Shown: positions 2,144 through 33,892 of the stretch, in pieces
How positions within the stretch are numbered: the first letter of the stretch is position 1
Layout of the letters: each line of letters opens with the position of its first letter
Assembly (NCBI GenBank): GCA_902765625.1
Contig: CACXAO010000023.1
Coordinates: 1 to 33,892 of the forward strand
DNA length: 33,892 nt
DNA from: an uncultured Ruminococcus sp.
GTDB lineage: Bacteria > Bacillota > Clostridia > Oscillospirales > Acutalibacteraceae
Direction of reading: 5' to 3'
Notes under the pieces: model-generated
Databases searched by the model: none
The model's input: the letters and a program-made list of their open reading frames with translations, nothing else
What the model was told of the DNA's origin: nothing
Translations under genes and position numbers: made by a program

Positions 2144-4510
2144 ATGTTCCTGTCAATGAACTGGATTTCGGACTTCGTGGATTTTACGGGTCTTGATAAG
2201 GTGGATCTGATTCACCGTTTTTCGCTTTCTACCGCCGAGGTGGAGAACGAGATTTTCTTTAAGGGTTCCGAGCTGAGCGGCGTGGTTGTCGCGGAGATCA
2301 AGTCCGTCGAGAATCACCCCGATTCAAAGAAGCTCCATCTTTTGAAGGTCGACGCCGGCGAGCCTGAGCTGACCGACGTTGTGTGCGGCGCGCCGAACGT
2401 GCGCGTCGGAATGAAAACCGCTTTCGCCAAGGTAGGCGCAAAGCTGGGCGAGATCGAAATCGCGCCCCGTCCTCTTGCGGGACATATGTCATACGGAATG
2501 TGCTGCTCCGAGTCTGAAATCGGCATCAGCGACGACCATTCCGGCATTATGGAAATCACCGACGACGTGCCCAACGGCACCGACATCAAGGACGTTTACG
2601 ATATCGACGACATCATCTTTGAGGTCGACAACAAGTCCCTCACCAACCGTCCCGACCTCTGGGGTCACTACGGAATCGCGCGTGAGTTCGCGGCACTTGC
2701 CGGCAGAGAACTCAAGCCGCTCGATACCGCCGATCCGGAGGCTTACAGCGAGCTTGCAAAGGTCGATATGAAAATCGAGGATCCGCTCTGTCAGCGTTAT
2801 TCCTGCCTGCAGGTCGAGAATATCTCGCGCAGCGTCAGCCCTGTCAACATGAGAATCCGCCTTTTCTACTGCGGAATGCGCGGTATCAACTTCCTCGCAG
2901 ACCTCACAAACTACCTCATGCTCGAAATGGGTCAGCCCATGCACGCGTTCGATTCGCGCAAGGTAGGCAAAATCCGCATCAAGCGCTTTGAGCAGCCCTT
3001 CGTTTTCCAAACCCTCGACGGCGTTGAGAGAAATATCGACGAGAACACCCTGATGATATGCAACGACAACACTCCCGTCGCGATCGCCGGCATTATGGGC
3101 GGTCTTGATTCCGAGATCGTTGAGGACACCACCACCCTCACCCTCGAATCCGCCACCTTTGACGCGGCTTCAATCCGCAAGTCGACCGTCCGTCTTGCTC
3201 ACCGCACCGACGCTTCAATGCGCTACGAAAAGAGTCTTGACCCCGAGCTGACCGTTCCGGCAATCGCCCGTTTCCTCTATCTGCTGATGAAGTACGACGG
3301 CGGCGTTAAGGTCGTTTCGGCGCTGACCGACGAGTCCGCGTTTGAGTATCCGCAGGTTGACCTCAGCTTTGACAAGAGCTTCGTCGACCGCTACACCGGC
3401 ATTGAGATCGACAACGACACCATCGTCAAGACCCTCACAAGCCTCGGCTTTAAGGTAACCCTCGACGGCGACAAATTCGACGTTCTCGTTCCCTCGTGGA
3501 GAGCGACGAAGGATGTTACCATGAACGCCGACATCATCGAGGAGATCACCCGTATTTACGGCTACGATAATTTTGCGGTCAACACCACCCGTTCGCCGCT
3601 TTATCCCGTCCGCGAGGACGTTGTAAAGAACAACGAGGACAGAATCAAGGACATGCTCGTTAAGCGTTACAGTCTGCACGAGGTTCACTCCTACATCTGG
3701 GCTTACGCGGACGAGCAGAAGGCTCTCGGCATTCCCGTTGAGGAGAATGTCCGCCTGCTCAACGCCACCAACCCCAACATCGAGACTATCCGCCGTTCGA
3801 TGATCCCCACCCAGCTCTGTCAGGTAAAGAGCAACGTCGGCTACGCGCCCGATTTCGGCATCTTCGAGGTCGGCAGAGTGGTTGACGGTGTTGACGAAAA
3901 CAACCTCTGCGTTGAGCATAAAATGCTCGCAATCACCCTTTACAGCAAGACGAAGGACGTCCGCACGCTCTACTTTGAGCTGCGCGATATGCTCGCGACG
4001 ATCGCCGACGACCTCAAGCACAAGTCCCTCGGCTACAAAATCGCTCAGCCGAAGCACTGCTACGAGCACCCCGTCAACCTCAACACTATCATCCTTGACG
4101 GCGTGGAGATCGGCAAGATCGGAATCGTTCACCCGACAGTCGGCAAGAAGATCGACAAGAAGAGCAGCGTCGTGTTCGCGGAGATCGACATGAACGCGTT
4201 CGCGGATGCTGAAAACGCCTCCATCTGCTACGAGGAGCCTTCAAAGTTCCCGCCGATGGATTACGACATCAGCGTTGTTGTTCCCGCCGGCGTGTTCTAC
4301 GCAGACCTCGAGCACTGCTGGAAGAACGAGGGCAGGGGTATTCTTAAAAACACCAAAATCGTAGACACCTACGACACCGAGATTTTCCACAGCATTACCA
4401 TCCGCTTTGAGTTCTCGTCCGCAGAGCGCACGCTCAGCTCGGGCGAGGTTCAGGAGATCATGGATAAGATTATTGCCAATCTCAAGGAGATAAAGGTTAC
4501 GCTCAGATAA
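2144..4510 (+). CDS. pheT: phenylalanine--tRNA ligase beta subunit
   Basis: This is the beta subunit of PheRS, needed for tRNA-Phe binding and for editing of mischarged Tyr-tRNA-Phe. The 788-aa length fits the full-length bacterial form. In order I see: the N-terminal region; an OB-fold tRNA-binding domain around residues 40-150 (VVAEIKSVENHPDSKKLHLL, then VVCGAPNVRVGMK); the B3/B4 editing region; the B5 domain; the catalytic-like core (GIFEVGRV region); and a C-terminal FDX-ACB anticodon-binding domain (FPPMDYDISVVVPAG to the end). GGGAGGG precedes the ATG at a good distance. It follows pheS on the same T-box-controlled transcript and ends just before a strong terminator. Confidence 0.97.
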   Translation: MFLSMNWISDFVDFTGLDKVDLIHRFSLSTAEVENEIFFKGSELSGVVVAEIKSVENHPDSKKLHLLKVDAGEPELTDVVCGAPNVRVGMKTAFAKVGAKLGEIEIAPRPLAGHMSYGMCCSESEIGISDDHSGIMEITDDVPNGTDIKDVYDIDDIIFEVDNKSLTNRPDLWGHYGIAREFAALAGRELKPLDTADPEAYSELAKVDMKIEDPLCQRYSCLQVENISRSVSPVNMRIRLFYCGMRGINFLADLTNYLMLEMGQPMHAFDSRKVGKIRIKRFEQPFVFQTLDGVERNIDENTLMICNDNTPVAIAGIMGGLDSEIVEDTTTLTLESATFDAASIRKSTVRLAHRTDASMRYEKSLDPELTVPAIARFLYLLMKYDGGVKVVSALTDESAFEYPQVDLSFDKSFVDRYTGIEIDNDTIVKTLTSLGFKVTLDGDKFDVLVPSWRATKDVTMNADIIEEITRIYGYDNFAVNTTRSPLYPVREDVVKNNEDRIKDMLVKRYSLHEVHSYIWAYADEQKALGIPVEENVRLLNATNPNIETIRRSMIPTQLCQVKSNVGYAPDFGIFEVGRVVDGVDENNLCVEHKMLAITLYSKTKDVRTLYFELRDMLATIADDLKHKSLGYKIAQPKHCYEHPVNLNTIILDGVEIGKIGIVHPTVGKKIDKKSSVVFAEIDMNAFADAENASICYEEPSKFPPMDYDISVVVPAGVFYADLEHCWKNEGRGILKNTKIVDTYDTEIFHSITIRFEFSSAERTLSSGEVQEIMDKIIANLKEIKVTLR

Positions 4511-4514
4511 AACA

Positions 4515-4546
4515 AAAGCGGAAGCGCCGGGTGCGCTTCCGTTTTT
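4515..4546 (+). terminator. terminator after pheT
   Basis: CGGAAGCGC at 4519-4527 pairs with GCGCTTCCG at 4533-4541 around a 5-nt loop, preceded by AAAA and followed by TTTTT. It closes the pheST operon. Confidence 0.92.
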
Positions 4547-4646
4547 ATGTATACTTCTCTGTCCTCCGTTGATGACCGTTTCAGGAGATGAACGTTTTCA
4601 AAGGGGGAGAGAGCGCCCGGTATAGCTTTAAAATGTATAAAAAGAC

Positions 4647-4675
4647 TTGCAATTTTTAGCTTTTTCCTGTATAAT
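4647..4675 (+). promoter_or_regulatory. sigma-A promoter of ireB
   Basis: TTGCAA at 4647-4652 and TATAAT at 4670-4675 are separated by 17 bp. The site lies about 30 bp ahead of the ireB start. Confidence 0.8.
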
Positions 4676-4706
4676 AATAAAATAGATAAACGGGAGGTGC
4701 TTCGGT

Positions 4707-4952
4707 ATGTTAGAAAAGACGATGATTTTTTCCTTGGGCGATGAAAAGGACGATCAGATAAAAACCGGACTTACAATCGTATATGACGCGCTGCGGCAGA
4801 AGGGCTACAACCCTATTAACCAGATTGTGGGCTATATTCTCAGCGAGGATCCCACGTACATCACTACCTTCAATAACGCGCGCAACATCATCAGCGCGAT
4901 TGACCGCGACGATCTGCTCGAAGCACTGGTTAAATCGTATCTTAATGTTTAA
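4707..4952 (+). CDS. ireB: IreB family regulatory phosphoprotein (UPF0297)
   Basis: This 81-aa protein has the conserved UPF0297/IreB pattern, with a Thr-rich N-terminus around [10 protein letters not shown], then [37 protein letters not shown] and a charged helical end. In Enterococcus, IreB is the substrate of the PASTA kinase IreK and tunes cephalosporin resistance; the same role here is inference, and no such kinase is in this window. The start is supported by GGGAGGTG eight bases upstream and a consensus promoter. The family is commonly followed by ruvX (Holliday junction resolvase). Here that place holds a MITE-like element whose outer end includes the ireB stop codon. The native C-terminus may therefore have been altered by a residue or two. 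Confidence 0.93.
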
Positions 4953-5117
4953 GGCAATTCCGCACAATTCGGGTGTGCGGATTGCGAAGTAAGTTTTTTC
5001 GTCAGCTTGAAAAAATAAATTGAGGTAAGGCTGACGCCTTGCCGAGATTTTTTTGGCGAGTTGACGGAATAAAATTCAAGCAAGGCGTACGCCGTGAATT
5101 GAGCGGTGTTGCCTTAA
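4949..5117. mobile_element. MITE-like inverted-repeat element (~169 bp)
   Basis: The two ends form an imperfect 22-bp terminal inverted repeat: TTAAGGCAATTCCGCACAAT... at 4949-4970, against the complement of the segment ending GCGGTGTTGCCTTAA at 5117 (19 of 22 positions agree). The interior also folds on itself: GGTAAGGC-TGAC-GCCTTGCC forms a hairpin near the centre, flanked by CGTCAGCTTG and GAGTTGACG arms. There is no coding capacity. The TA at each edge would fit a TA target-site duplication of the IS630/Tc1-mariner kind, which is inference. It lies exactly between the ireB stop codon and the ribosome binding site of the next gene. Confidence 0.72.
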
Positions 5118-5133
5118 GAAAGGATGATGCCTT

Positions 5134-5436
5134 GTGGCAGAAGCGAAAGCGCCAAAGGAGTTCTCTACCTATAAGGGCAGACCTCTTGTTCGCTGCGGCG
5201 ACGAAATCTACTACGGCAACATGGAAGAGCCGTATGTCATCAGACTTCAGATCAAGTCCAAAAAGGAGGTCGGCGGAATAGAGGTTGCCGACAAGATCAC
5301 GGTTCAGCTGATGGCTACCGACCCATACCTTTTACCAAGAAAGGCGATCGTAAAGACCAGCGAAAAGCAGGGCTTTTATCTTGCGATGGATATCGCCGAC
5401 ATCTGGCTCGGCAGAGCACTTGCAGGAAAAATGTAG
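5134..5436 (+). CDS. conserved clostridial protein of unknown function
   Basis: This 100-aa soluble protein has no signal peptide or membrane segment. From memory it resembles small hypothetical proteins common in Ruminococcaceae-type clostridia, with a pattern like YKGRPLVRCGDEIYYGNM, then YVIRLQI, VADKITVQLM, DPYLLPRKAIVKTSEK and a helical end (LAMDIADIWLGRALAG). No function is known to me. The start is GTG at 5134, chosen because AAAGGA lies about nine bases upstream. That site begins only a few bases after the MITE-like element, so the insertion left it intact. The gene ends just before a terminator and is probably read from the ireB promoter through the element. Confidence 0.85.
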   Translation: MAEAKAPKEFSTYKGRPLVRCGDEIYYGNMEEPYVIRLQIKSKKEVGGIEVADKITVQLMATDPYLLPRKAIVKTSEKQGFYLAMDIADIWLGRALAGKM

Positions 5437-5443
5437 TAAAAAG

Positions 5444-5474
5444 AAAGGAGCGCTTAGTTCAGGCGCTCCTTTTT
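5444..5474. terminator. bidirectional terminator between convergent genes
   Basis: AAAGGAGCGC at 5444-5453 pairs with GCGCTCCTTT at 5463-5472, with T runs on the plus strand and A-rich sequence at the other side. It lies between the plus-strand unknown gene and the minus-strand lipoprotein and can serve both. Confidence 0.85.
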
Positions 5475-5481
5475 GCGTGCA

Positions 5482-6213
5482 TTAATTTGTGTTGAGGTTA
5501 ACGCTGTAGGTCTTTGCCGAGGGACTGTACTGCATATCGCCGCGCACAACGCCGCTCTGGAAGTAGTCGCGCTGATACTGGTACGCGTCCTGATAATTGT
5601 CGCGCAGGATCTCGTCTTCATAGTCGCAGCGCACGTCGGTGGGCTTGAAGTAGGTCAGGTACTTTTTCTGTCCGTTTACAACAACAGAGCCTGCCGGATG
5701 ATCGATTTCAACATTCGATTCCTCGTCGTTCAGCGATACCGAGAACAGGAAGCCGAGACTCGCTCTGCCGTATTTCTCAATGCCTCTGATAAGGTTCGAT
5801 GCCTCATAGAACTCCAGATAATAGCTGCCTTTCTCGGAGGTGCCTGTTACGGCGTAGACCTTGCCTTTCCACTCGGTGATAGTGAAGGTGATGCCGAGAG
5901 TGTCGTCGGTGTATGTGTCGTCGGTTACAAGAACGAAGCCGCCGTCCTGAACGATGGGATAATCCCATTCAACGGAGCTGCTCTCTGTAGTGGGAGCTTC
6001 TGTCGCGGCTTCTGTTGTTGCGGCTTCTGTTGTCGCGGCAGCGGTTGTGGCTGCGGCGGTTGTTGCGGCAGGCGCGTTTGTCGCGATCTGAACGGAGGTG
6101 GTAGGCTCGTTTCTTCCGCCCAAAATGTCCTTGATGATGTTGCAGCCCGAAAATACCGTAACGGCGGTTGCCGCGGATAGGGTAAGAGCCAGCGCTGCGG
6201 TCAGCTTTTTCAT
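5482..6213 (-). CDS. putative lipoprotein with Thr/Ala-rich linker
   Basis: This 243-aa protein starts with a lipoprotein signal peptide (MKKLTAALALTLSA...) ending in the lipobox VFSGC, so Cys24 is the predicted lipid-modified residue. A low-complexity Ala/Thr/Glu linker follows at about residues 40-78, of the sort that spaces a domain away from the membrane through the cell wall. The remaining ~165 residues form a mixed alpha/beta extracytoplasmic domain that I do not recognise; there are no Cys residues or obvious catalytic motifs. AAAGGAG lies upstream of the ATG. No own promoter is evident in the 75 bp after khpA, although a strong terminator lies there, so its transcription is unclear. 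Confidence 0.82.
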   Translation of the reverse strand: MKKLTAALALTLSAATAVTVFSGCNIIKDILGGRNEPTTSVQIATNAPAATTAAATTAAATTEAATTEAATEAPTTESSSVEWDYPIVQDGGFVLVTDDTYTDDTLGITFTITEWKGKVYAVTGTSEKGSYYLEFYEASNLIRGIEKYGRASLGFLFSVSLNDEESNVEIDHPAGSVVVNGQKKYLTYFKPTDVRCDYEDEILRDNYQDAYQYQRDYFQSGVVRGDMQYSPSAKTYSVNLNTN

Positions 6214-6253
6214 GCGTAAATCTCCTTTGCGAGTGGATTTGTCAATTTATTAA

Positions 6254-6281
6254 CAAACAAAAAGGGCGGTATACGCCCTTT
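6254..6281 (-). terminator. terminator after khpA
   Basis: AAAGGGCG at 6261-6268 and CGCCCTTT at 6274-6281 form the stem. Read on the minus strand it is followed by TTTTTGTTTG. It ends the ylxM-ffh-rpsP-khpA transcript. Confidence 0.85.
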
Positions 6282-6287
6282 AACTGT

Positions 6288-6521
6288 TTAGTCGATTTCA
6301 ACCATAACTCTTTCATCCATGCGGATAGACGCGCTCTTGGCGATCGTGCGGATAGCCTTGGCGATTCTGCCCTGCTTACCGATGATTCTGCCCATGTCGT
6401 CCTCTGCAACGTGGATGTGGTATACGGTCACGCCTTCCTCGTTGGTCTCGTCTCTGTCAACGCTTACTGCGTCGGGGTCGTCTACCAAGCCCTTGGCGAT
6501 GATAGCAAGTAATTCCTGCAT
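6288..6521 (-). CDS. khpA: KH-domain RNA-binding protein KhpA (YlqC)
   Basis: This 77-aa protein is essentially one KH domain, with the GXXG-type RNA-binding loop in GRIIGKQGRIAKAIRTI (about residues 44-60). KhpA partners with KhpB/EloR in Firmicutes to bind RNAs and affect cell elongation and division; that partner is not in this window. It is the last gene of ylxM-ffh-rpsP-khpA, 24 bp after rpsP, the place the family usually holds. GGAAGGAA precedes the ATG. In many Firmicutes rimM and trmD follow directly. Here they lie about 9 kb away on the other strand. Confidence 0.95.
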   Translation of the reverse strand: MQELLAIIAKGLVDDPDAVSVDRDETNEEGVTVYHIHVAEDDMGRIIGKQGRIAKAIRTIAKSASIRMDERVMVEID

Positions 6522-6545
6522 TCTACTATTCCTTCCTGCCCGAAA

Positions 6546-6791
6546 TTAGTCGATGATGCCGTTTTTCTTGAGCAGAGCCTTTACGGTATCGGTGGGCTGA
6601 GCGCCGTTGGCGATCCACTTCTTAACAGCCTCGGCGTCTACGTTGAACTCAGAGGGCTTCTTGAGGATGTCGTAGGTACCGATTTCCTCGATGAATCTGC
6701 CGTTTCTGGGATATCTTGAATCCGCAACGATTACTCTGTAGTAGGGAGCCTTCTTGGAGCCCATTCTTCTAAGTCTGATTTTTACTGCCAT
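6546..6791 (-). CDS. rpsP: 30S ribosomal protein S16
   Basis: The 81-aa sequence is a full-length bS16, with the signature [20 protein letters not shown], then [19 protein letters not shown], and the C-terminal [17 protein letters not shown]16 binds 16S rRNA and helps assembly of the small subunit. GAGGTG lies seven bases before the ATG. It sits between ffh and khpA, the standard order, and is co-transcribed with them. Confidence 0.98.
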
Positions 6792-33132: not shown

Positions 33133-33892
33133 TCAGTTTTCCATTTGTTTTCCGAGGAACGCCGCCGCCGACTGCGCAAGCTTGATTTCGACCCCGGTCG
33201 GAATTTTAGCGTTCTCGCCCGTGAGCAAAACCACAGCGCCCATAACGTCGCCAGAGGCGATGATGGGATAGATAACCGCCGCGTCGTGCTCAATGCCCTC
33301 AATCGGCTGAACGTTGCCGAGGGTCTGATTTGTAGCGGCGTAGCTTTTGCGGTTGTCCATGTAGCTCTCGAGAATCGAGCTTATCCTCCGCTCAAGATAT
33401 TCGCGCTTCGAAACTCCTGCAGCAGCTATAACATGATCTGTATCGCAGATAAGGGTGGGCATAGAGCTTATGCGCGCGATTACGTCGGCATACTGCCCGG
33501 CAAATTCACTCAGCTCGCCGACAGGCGAATATTTCTTGAAAATAACCTCGCCGTCCGTAGCAGTGTAAATCTCCAGCGGGTCACCGTCACTGATAATATT
33601 GACATCATAGACCTTGTCTTTCCGGCATTTTTCCTTCGAGACGAGTGTGACAGATAAGTTATCCATGATGCCTGAATCAAAATTTGCGGCTTCCTCCATA
33701 TCCTCGGCAAGCGTTCCGCAGCGCAGAAGGCTGTCGATGTCCGCTTTGAGCTGAACGTCAACGTGATCCTCGTACACGCGGATCCGCTCGATAATCAATT
33801 GCAGGTCGCTGCGGTCGAGCTTGTCCTTGTTGAGTATGTCGTCGAATACCTCGAGCGCGAGCTTTGCCGTGCGGTTTACCCTGATGATGGTA
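33133..33892 (-). CDS. serine recombinase C-terminus fused in frame to SpoVT C-terminal domain (partial)
   Basis: The frame is open from the right window edge to its stop at 33133. From GDPLEIY onward, the ~150 C-terminal residues follow B. subtilis SpoVT closely from memory: GEVIFKKYSPVGEL, FAGQYADVI, LICDTDHVIAAAGVSKREYL, PIIASGDVMGAVVLL and AAAFLGKQMEN, which is the GAF-like sensory domain. The SpoVT N-terminus, with its AbrB DNA-binding hairpin, is absent. In its place the frame reads NRTAKLALEVFDDIL, LIIERIRVYEDHVDVQLKAD and IDSLLRCGTL, which look like the end of a large serine recombinase. The junction is near 33580-33590. The simplest reading is an element integrated into spoVT, with its recombinase at this end; most of it lies beyond the window. 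An internal TTG at 33798 is not a start. Confidence 0.75.
   Translation of the reverse strand, partial: TIIRVNRTAKLALEVFDDILNKDKLDRSDLQLIIERIRVYEDHVDVQLKADIDSLLRCGTLAEDMEEAANFDSGIMDNLSVTLVSKEKCRKDKVYDVNIISDGDPLEIYTATDGEVIFKKYSPVGELSEFAGQYADVIARISSMPTLICDTDHVIAAAGVSKREYLERRISSILESYMDNRKSYAATNQTLGNVQPIEGIEHDAAVIYPIIASGDVMGAVVLLTGENAKIPTGVEIKLAQSAAAFLGKQMEN
33576..33595 (-). other. predicted recombination junction inside spoVT
   Basis: Here the recombinase-like sequence gives way to SpoVT-like sequence, around the minus-strand bases GACGGTGACCC that encode DGDP. In SpoVT homologs the same Gly-Asp-Pro lies just after the AbrB hairpin. The crossover core is likely a few bases within this segment. 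The exact bases cannot be set without the other end of the element. Confidence 0.45.

Follow-up and report, generated by a model that had tools for sequence, protein, structure and literature searches.

The window analysed here, 33,892 nucleotides from an uncultured Ruminococcus sp., is one entire contig (C23, bases 1-33892) of a fragmentary assembly of 93 contigs, and its right end carries a 252-aa open reading frame on the minus strand whose 5' end is open at the contig end (33133-33891; Table 1). A first-pass annotation had read this frame as the tail of a serine recombinase joined in frame to the sensory domain of SpoVT, with the AbrB-type DNA-binding hairpin replaced, and both parts of that description proved correct. 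Residues 126-251 cover the whole of the Pfam model SpoVT_C (PF15714, E 8.8e-42), and the residues before them align with the recombinase of the related locus L042. The NCBIfam model spore_V_T is matched from model position 26 only, at 158.3 bits and thus below its cut-off of 235.9, which means that the AbrB-type DNA-binding part is absent from the frame. The junction falls at Gly-Asp-Pro, with the recombinase end preceding GDPLEI, and two related loci (L040 and L041) are 96-98% identical to the window frame across all 252 aa.

Because the window is a whole contig, the sequence to its right is unreadable and the rest of the recombinase was taken from relatives. Neither the remainder of the recombinase nor a spoVT 5' half is present on any other contig of the 93-contig assembly. 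Five recombinases near contig ends were examined as possible continuations and none could be joined; those on contigs C15 and C2 have a fitting orientation, but share no 15-mer with the last 300 bases of the window and are 28-34% identical to the L042 recombinase, against 78% for the window. An AbrB-like match on contig C46 was rejected as the 5' half, being a complete protein of 88-94 aa in its own right. For the window's own genome the insertion model is therefore argued from relatives, as the recombinase N-terminus and the 5' half are both unassembled there. In those relatives the full-length frames carry Resolvase, Recombinase, Zn_ribbon_recom and SpoVT_C domains in one open reading frame (four of four scanned, 716-783 aa), and the first three are likewise present in the frame of the single-contig genome G405; the catalytic domain expected upstream by the annotation was thus found in the same reading frame of relatives.

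Table 1. Features at the window junction and related features in other genomes
Feature	Location	Strand	Remarks
In-frame recombinase-SpoVT reading frame	33133..33891	-	252 aa, 5' end beyond contig; full-length frames in relatives 716-783 aa
spoVT 3' half, Gly codon of GDPLEI to stop, GAF-type sensory domain	33133..33585	-	PF15714, whole model; spore_V_T from model position 26
Recombination core GGTGACCC of attR, probable crossover at central GA	33578..33585	-	Common to both junctions in relatives
attP element-side arm GTCAATATTATCAGTGAC	33586..33603	-	Pairs with far-end arm in relatives, mean 14.7/18, 46 pairings
Large serine recombinase C-terminal part, cut by contig end	33586..33891	-	78% identity to L042 recombinase residues 472-570
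Cas9/CRISPR islands in spoVT	L151 11199-18589 (G012); L164 2766-8135 (G017)
spoVT 5' half in cis, first set			G012, G015, G063, G071, G073, G079, G080, G086, G089
spoVT 5' half in cis, second set			G200, G213, G269, G373, G383, G391, G399, G405, G423, G447, G467

Far edge, empty site and attachment site

In 20 genomes (Table 1) a spoVT 5' half lies upstream of the 3' half on the same contig and strand, with 7.9-56 kb between the two, and the same searches found no intact spoVT in any of these 20, which include the single-contig genome G405. In further genomes the halves are on different contigs, and several close relatives of the window, e.g., G059, G060, G064, G066, and G067, yielded no 5' half. 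The annotation had predicted a truncated 5' half at the far end of an inserted element; this holds for the 20 relatives, while in the window's own genome that half is unassembled. In two genomes, G265 (contig C2) and G110 (contig C2), the halves are on one contig but on opposite strands, in G110 at a distance of 240 kb. Two others, G061 (L165 and L166) and G084 (L174 and L175), each have two different 5' halves and one 3' half, which may reflect a nested or remnant element, or contamination.

An empty site is provided by the intact locus L101, which matches the split locus L063 with flanks 87-97% identical; when the flanks of L063 are joined in silico they give an unbroken SpoVT frame that is 96.5% identical to L101 across 637 nt. 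The proposal that an element is inserted in spoVT is thus upheld in relatives by the catalytic domain upstream in frame, the 5' half at the far end and the empty site, and a fused gene family conserved without any element, which the annotation had named as its alternative, does not describe these loci. Halves in the same orientation, a shared core, a large serine recombinase at the edge and precise removal in silico, the features of known sporulation gene-intervening elements (we compared skin, SPbeta/spsM, vfbin, vrin, gin, and yin), are all found here. A stretch of 2.5 kb just upstream of the intact spoVT (L101 6581-9092) is 81% identical to the interior of the L063 element (4111-6633) and is perhaps the scar of an earlier insertion, or a product of cargo exchange. 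Contig breaks were considered as a sign of mixed states: the start of three of 79 contigs is no more than 3 nt away from the core, and G092 has two contigs with an overlap of exactly 99 nt, one of them starting at the core, as would fit intact and split copies in one sample. This reading is weakened by the bins G092, G093, and G094, which are without a close recombinase, and strain mixture or another cause is possible.

The core GGYGACCC is, with a few variants, common to both junctions. The sequence before it at the recombinase edge and the sequence after it at the other edge are inverted repeats with the consensus GTCAATGTTATCAGTGAC ... GTCACTGACAACATTGAC; across the 46 pairings between 10 and 17 of the 18 positions are paired (mean in Table 1), and eight slid registers gave 2.4-4.3. 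Among 38 distinct pairs, from which G061 and G084 were left out, true partners averaged 14.5 and permuted ones 13.0 (sd 0.19), with none of 20,000 permutations as high, a difference that relatedness can inflate. The pairing of the two ends of the element indicates that stretches many kb apart are the two arms of one palindromic attP. From this symmetry, and from the bases that differ between the two ends, we infer the GA dinucleotide as the probable point of crossover. A search for the excised circle with the attP pattern gave no matches in viral contigs or in 216 loci.

Beyond the junction at the far edge the spoVT 5' half continues for about 27 codons into the element and then stops, often at codon 58. 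These tails are alike between elements (e.g., ...SLTTLTNWQRFSFAMLDLAKRAGFD) and would be the C-terminus of the recombinase in the circular form of the element. There is modest support for the tail being coding, in that its reading frame has pS 0.498 and pN 0.311 against 0.427/0.342 and 0.377/0.351 in the other two frames (18 elements with a tail of that length). The position of attP within the recombinase gene, close to the 3' end, means that on integration the recombinase and SpoVT trade C-termini. At the level of sequence, these comparisons establish that the window ends in the attR of an integrated island splitting spoVT at codons Gly31-Asp32, that the integrated recombinase has its last ~27 codons swapped for the SpoVT sensory half, and that at the other edge the SpoVT DNA-binding half is followed by the ~27 codons of the recombinase. 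An odd arrangement is that of G435 (contigs C13 and C10), where the recombinase frame terminates short of the core and a stop follows immediately in the 5' half.

Distribution, cargo and constraint

The whole 252-aa query was matched by 31 of the 80 loci kept from a search of genome contigs, which returned 116 related stretches in all (L043 and L011 are one locus, reached twice). Within the genus the fused form is present in five of 36 genomes, that of the window included; 26 match from about residue 100 onward only, one from residue 131 only, and four are without a match. Across the order 34 of 394 genomes, in 27 of 168 genera, carry the recombinase (profile of 16 recombinases, E 1e-120 or better), and in two families of the order it was found in 61 of 400 and 13 of 87 genomes at a threshold of 1e-150. 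The recombinase runs in frame into SpoVT in 28 of the 30 loci of the order search; in the other two, G262 and G198, it lies elsewhere and runs into other sequence, and spoVT is whole. A further 49 loci gave 44 fusions to SpoVT (43 by pattern, and L350 by reading its ends), the remainder being L322, L333, and L349, which run into other sequence, L319, which is cut by a contig end, and L335, a member of a more distant subfamily. Insertion at a place other than spoVT is seen for family members at L239, L246, L322, L333, and L349. Close relatives are also borne by five IMG/VR contigs (L210-L213 and L215), and two sequences from human faeces labelled Bacteriophage sp. encode recombinases of the same family: that of L209 (MT836658.1) is fused to SpoVT, and that of L208 (MT839487.1) ends about 50 nt before the expected core.

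In nine fully read islands (243 ORFs of at least 70 aa, together with two parts of the G017 island) no genes other than the recombinase and a small gene are common to more than three. The cargo assignments that follow are gene matches to putative systems. The G012 island encodes Cas9 (best PADLOC E 7.5e-250; 38 ORFs scanned) and has a CRISPR array, visible as repeats within ORFs; a copy of Cas9 and CRISPR was recognised in the G017 island from a shared ORF start and shared repeats. In five other islands (57 proteins) there are matches to type I restriction, type IV restriction-like, GmrSD, AbiEii, TIR-type, and other genes, while surface-polysaccharide genes are among the matches listed for the G015 and G073 islands (44 of 69 proteins scanned, Pfam). 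The G405 island carries a relaxase (PF03432), S-layer-domain proteins, and RhuM. A second relaxase, recognised by reading, is one of the 57 proteins of the five islands (in G086); in this count the 38 proteins of G012 were covered by PADLOC only, and G015 and G073 by Pfam for 44 of 69, with the top 25 families listed. An integration module together with a relaxase, the mark of integrative and mobilizable elements (IMEs), was seen in G405 and G086.

The dynamics of these islands were addressed by comparing the synonymous divergence of the recombinase with that of the spoVT 3' half. Several pairs have a lower recombinase dS (0.125 vs. 0.376; 0.276 vs. 1.163 for L041/L042; 0.478 vs. 1.261; 0.279 vs. 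1.507; and, for G200/G269, 0.208 vs. a spoVT dS of 1.693), often three to eight times below that of spoVT, and this pattern shows that the element moves between species. Since many insertions look young by the same measure, preservation of the reading frames does not have to reflect use while split. In three pairs the values are similar or the recombinase value is higher, namely L075/L077 (0.142 vs. 0.110), L080/L081 (0.644 vs. 0.670), and G382/G447 (0.447 vs. 0.284), and here the omega of the spoVT 3' half is 0.00, 0.03, and 0.04, respectively; higher values were obtained for G382/G405 (0.485) and for a rabbit-gut group (0.07-0.28). The 5' halves of split genes (n = 28) are likewise under constraint, with pN 0.066 and pS 0.666, those of intact genes (n = 67) pN 0.053 and pS 0.781. 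On a FastTree phylogeny of 130 spoVT-C rows (65 split and 65 intact), which is approximate as many branches are long, the split state changes 29 times, at least 16 of them by well-supported branches. All 62 genomes searched have SpoIVA and 60 of them SASP; spoVT is intact in the two that gave no SASP, and both genes are kept in all 31 split genomes tested. It should be noted that three genomes without detectable SpoVT also keep SpoIVA and SASP, so that a need for SpoVT is not shown by these genes.

The small upstream gene and its promoter

The small gene (about 70-110 residues, typically about 85) precedes the recombinase in 43 of 58 loci and in 34 of 49 further ones, so that in about a quarter to a third no copy was detected at that place. 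Of the 15 misses in the first set, four offered less than 175 nt of upstream sequence to search. Its product has no NCBIfam or PHROGs match (41 members) and nothing significant in PDB; in Pfam three of four members are without any match and the fourth has weak ones only. Where the gene lies, how long its product is, and the type of its promoter make the small protein a candidate recombination directionality factor, although this assignment is a guess.

Of 55 recombinase upstream regions, 35 have an extended -10 of sigma-A type (TGNTACAAT-like) within 160 nt, against 0.56 in shuffled sequence; a strict -35/-10 regular expression found only six of the 55. The small gene is preceded by a different motif, GNATA ... 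GGAAAATA, which was first noticed post hoc, and in the upstream regions of spoVT GNATA is likewise present, spaced equally far from an AATA-like element. Written as G[ACT]ATA-N20..22-A[AC]TA, the pattern occurs in 71 of 102 spoVT regions (shuffled 1.66), 16 of 33 small-gene regions (0.44), and one of 51 recombinase regions (0.87), and the TGNTACAAT-like extended -10 in none, none, and 27 of the same three sets. The prediction was then written down before a single test on recombinase loci that had played no part in the earlier counts, the families of which overlap the earlier ones. The pattern was found in 16 of 30 non-redundant small-gene regions (shuffled 0.17, maximum 2; slid spacings 0 and 1) and in none of 40 recombinase regions, and the TGNTACAAT-like element in one of 30 and 21 of 40, respectively. 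About half of the small genes are without the strict pattern. A sigma-F pattern with GGNAANA was also tried, and was abandoned with five of 33 small genes and none of 102 spoVT regions. In Clostridioides difficile a G at that side of the pattern marks sigma-F promoters, and spoVT of that species answers to sigma-F and sigma-G (PMC3789822); on this basis we call the small-gene pattern forespore-type and sigma-F-like. In many loci, e.g., L063, the -10 region (TACAATRTTATC) about 60 nt upstream of the recombinase start resembles an attP arm, and the recombinase upstream regions beat their shuffles for the attP-arm profile in 47 of 55 cases; self-repression of the recombinase through this arm-like region is possible.

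A proposed switch in a forespore gene

Elements splitting sporulation genes have been named for sigK, spsM, spoVFB, gerE, and yabG (PMC5595907, PMC10747680, PMC4191935). In the skin element of C. difficile sigK the recombinase is made from a sigma-A promoter in all cells, and the small sporulation-specific protein CD1234 gives it its direction in the mother cell only (PMC5025042). The spoVT islands share with skin a split regulator gene, a sigma-A-type recombinase promoter, and a separate small gene, but in the terminal mother cell CD1234 is controlled by sigma-E and SpoIIID (PMC5025042), whereas here the promoter is of forespore type and the target a forespore gene. In SPbeta, inserted in spsM of Bacillus subtilis, a constitutive sigma-A-type SprA acts with the mother-cell-specific small protein SprB on inverted-repeat attachment sites, a layout that recurs in the spoVT islands; SPbeta is a phage in a mother-cell gene, and the forespore genome is stressed as keeping the prophage (PMC4191935), in contrast to the forespore gene targeted by the spoVT islands. 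Similar in kind is gin of Bacillus cereus ATCC10987, an island of non-phage type that carries genes for restriction-modification and interrupts a sporulation regulator at a short shared core; its large serine recombinase and the small factor GirX restore gerE in sporulation (PMC5595907), and the layout here is analogous, with excision as a putative counterpart. The gin element targets the mother-cell gene gerE and has three recombinases (PMC5595907), whereas the spoVT islands have a single one with attP within its gene and an in-frame fusion to the host gene, and carry unlike cargo in many genera. The yin element in yabG is, as here, a recombinase element in a clostridial sporulation gene, but is a prophage described as unique to one strain and has a putative factor with a putative SigK promoter (PMC10747680). 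Mycobacteriophage BPs likewise has its attP within a coding gene, so that integration alters the C-terminus of a protein (PMC4557955). In BPs the altered protein is the repressor, whereas in the spoVT islands it is the recombinase and a host regulator that trade C-termini. Integration of BPs reportedly shortens the repressor.

The mother-cell target common to sigK, spsM, and gerE is not shared by spoVT, a forespore gene in B. subtilis and C. difficile (PMC5061766, PMC3789822) and presumably in the present hosts; in B. subtilis its product is made in the forespore under the control of sigma-G (PMC5061766). Excision is confined to the mother cell for C. difficile sigK (PMC5025042) and for spsM (PMC4191935), and as the mother cell dies the element is never lost from the lineage. 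In a forespore gene, excision would reach the genome of the spore itself and would need reintegration, and loss of the island from the germ line would be a cost for reintegration to offset.

The annotation had left three outcomes open, namely loss of SpoVT, a recombinase-GAF fusion, or excision restoring spoVT. The palindromic attP, the kept reading frames, and the promoter pattern favour restoration, although excision itself is unobserved. The best reading, which we consider probable, is a skin-like two-part excision switch in the forespore gene spoVT, in which the insertion is documented by the comparisons above and the timed excision is what we infer. The sigma-A-type promoter would have the recombinase made in growing cells, holding the island integrated; in sporulation a forespore sigma factor would turn on the small gene through its sigma-F-like promoter, and the product of about 85 residues would act as a directionality factor. 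The island would then leave and spoVT would be whole again in the forespore just before SpoVT is needed. The excised circle, enclosed in the spore, would re-enter spoVT after germination by means of the vegetative recombinase, a step of reintegration that is purely conjectural. That spoVT is in this way a germ-line gene switch, with excision in the forespore, a circle carried in the spore, re-entry at the same codons, and an exchange of C-termini in each cycle, we put forward more tentatively, as somewhat short of an even chance.

The islands could instead be plain parasitic insertions that use highly conserved spoVT codons as a landing site, so that spoVT is simply off and any excision serves transfer, the halves looking intact because the insertions are young and have passed between species. 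We hold this account to be unlikely, though deserving of serious weight. A recombinase dS far below that of spoVT in several pairs, the minimum of 16 changes of the split state, which implies frequent transfer, the relaxases in two islands, which suggest conjugal mobilization, and the retention of SpoIVA and SASP in three genomes without detectable SpoVT are all as it would predict. It does not readily explain why a gene of the integration module should have a forespore-type promoter, a finding that recurred in previously unseen loci, nor the very low spoVT omega (0.00-0.04) of pairs in which the recombinase dS matches that of spoVT. Lasting loss of SpoVT should moreover be costly, since a C. 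difficile spoVT mutant formed no heat-resistant spores (PMC3789822); SpoVT is also essential for sporulation in B. cereus, with a milder effect of its loss in B. subtilis (PMC5061766).

Far less probable is a working recombinase-SpoVT fusion, either as an integrated recombinase controlled by a ligand through the sensory domain or with the fusion and the truncated SpoVT together replacing SpoVT. Conservation of the frame in 28/30 and 44/49 loci and constraint on the SpoVT half would suit such a fusion, but the frame follows from the position of attP in the recombinase gene and from a core read in the frame of spoVT, and the constraint is equally expected if excision restores spoVT. The same-family recombinases at L239, L246, L322, L333, and L349, which run into other sequence, indicate that the sensory domain is unneeded for integration. 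Misassembly or chimeric contigs, which the fragmentary window genome and a contig end about 300 nt from the junction might suggest, can be set aside almost entirely, and for the family are refuted by the recurrence of this junction across many genera, in assemblies made independently, as well as in a genome of one contig.

Among the matches listed in the open-licence PMC literature, none concerned an element in spoVT. The junction in the window is the edge of mobile islands within spoVT that form a common family in the order. In gut and rumen bacteria they link a sporulation gene with cargo for defence and surface glycans, and they present a site-specific recombinase whose own C-terminus depends on its state of integration. 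A split forespore gene breaks the mother-cell rule of the known elements: either germ-line excision can be reversed, or these bacteria form spores without SpoVT.
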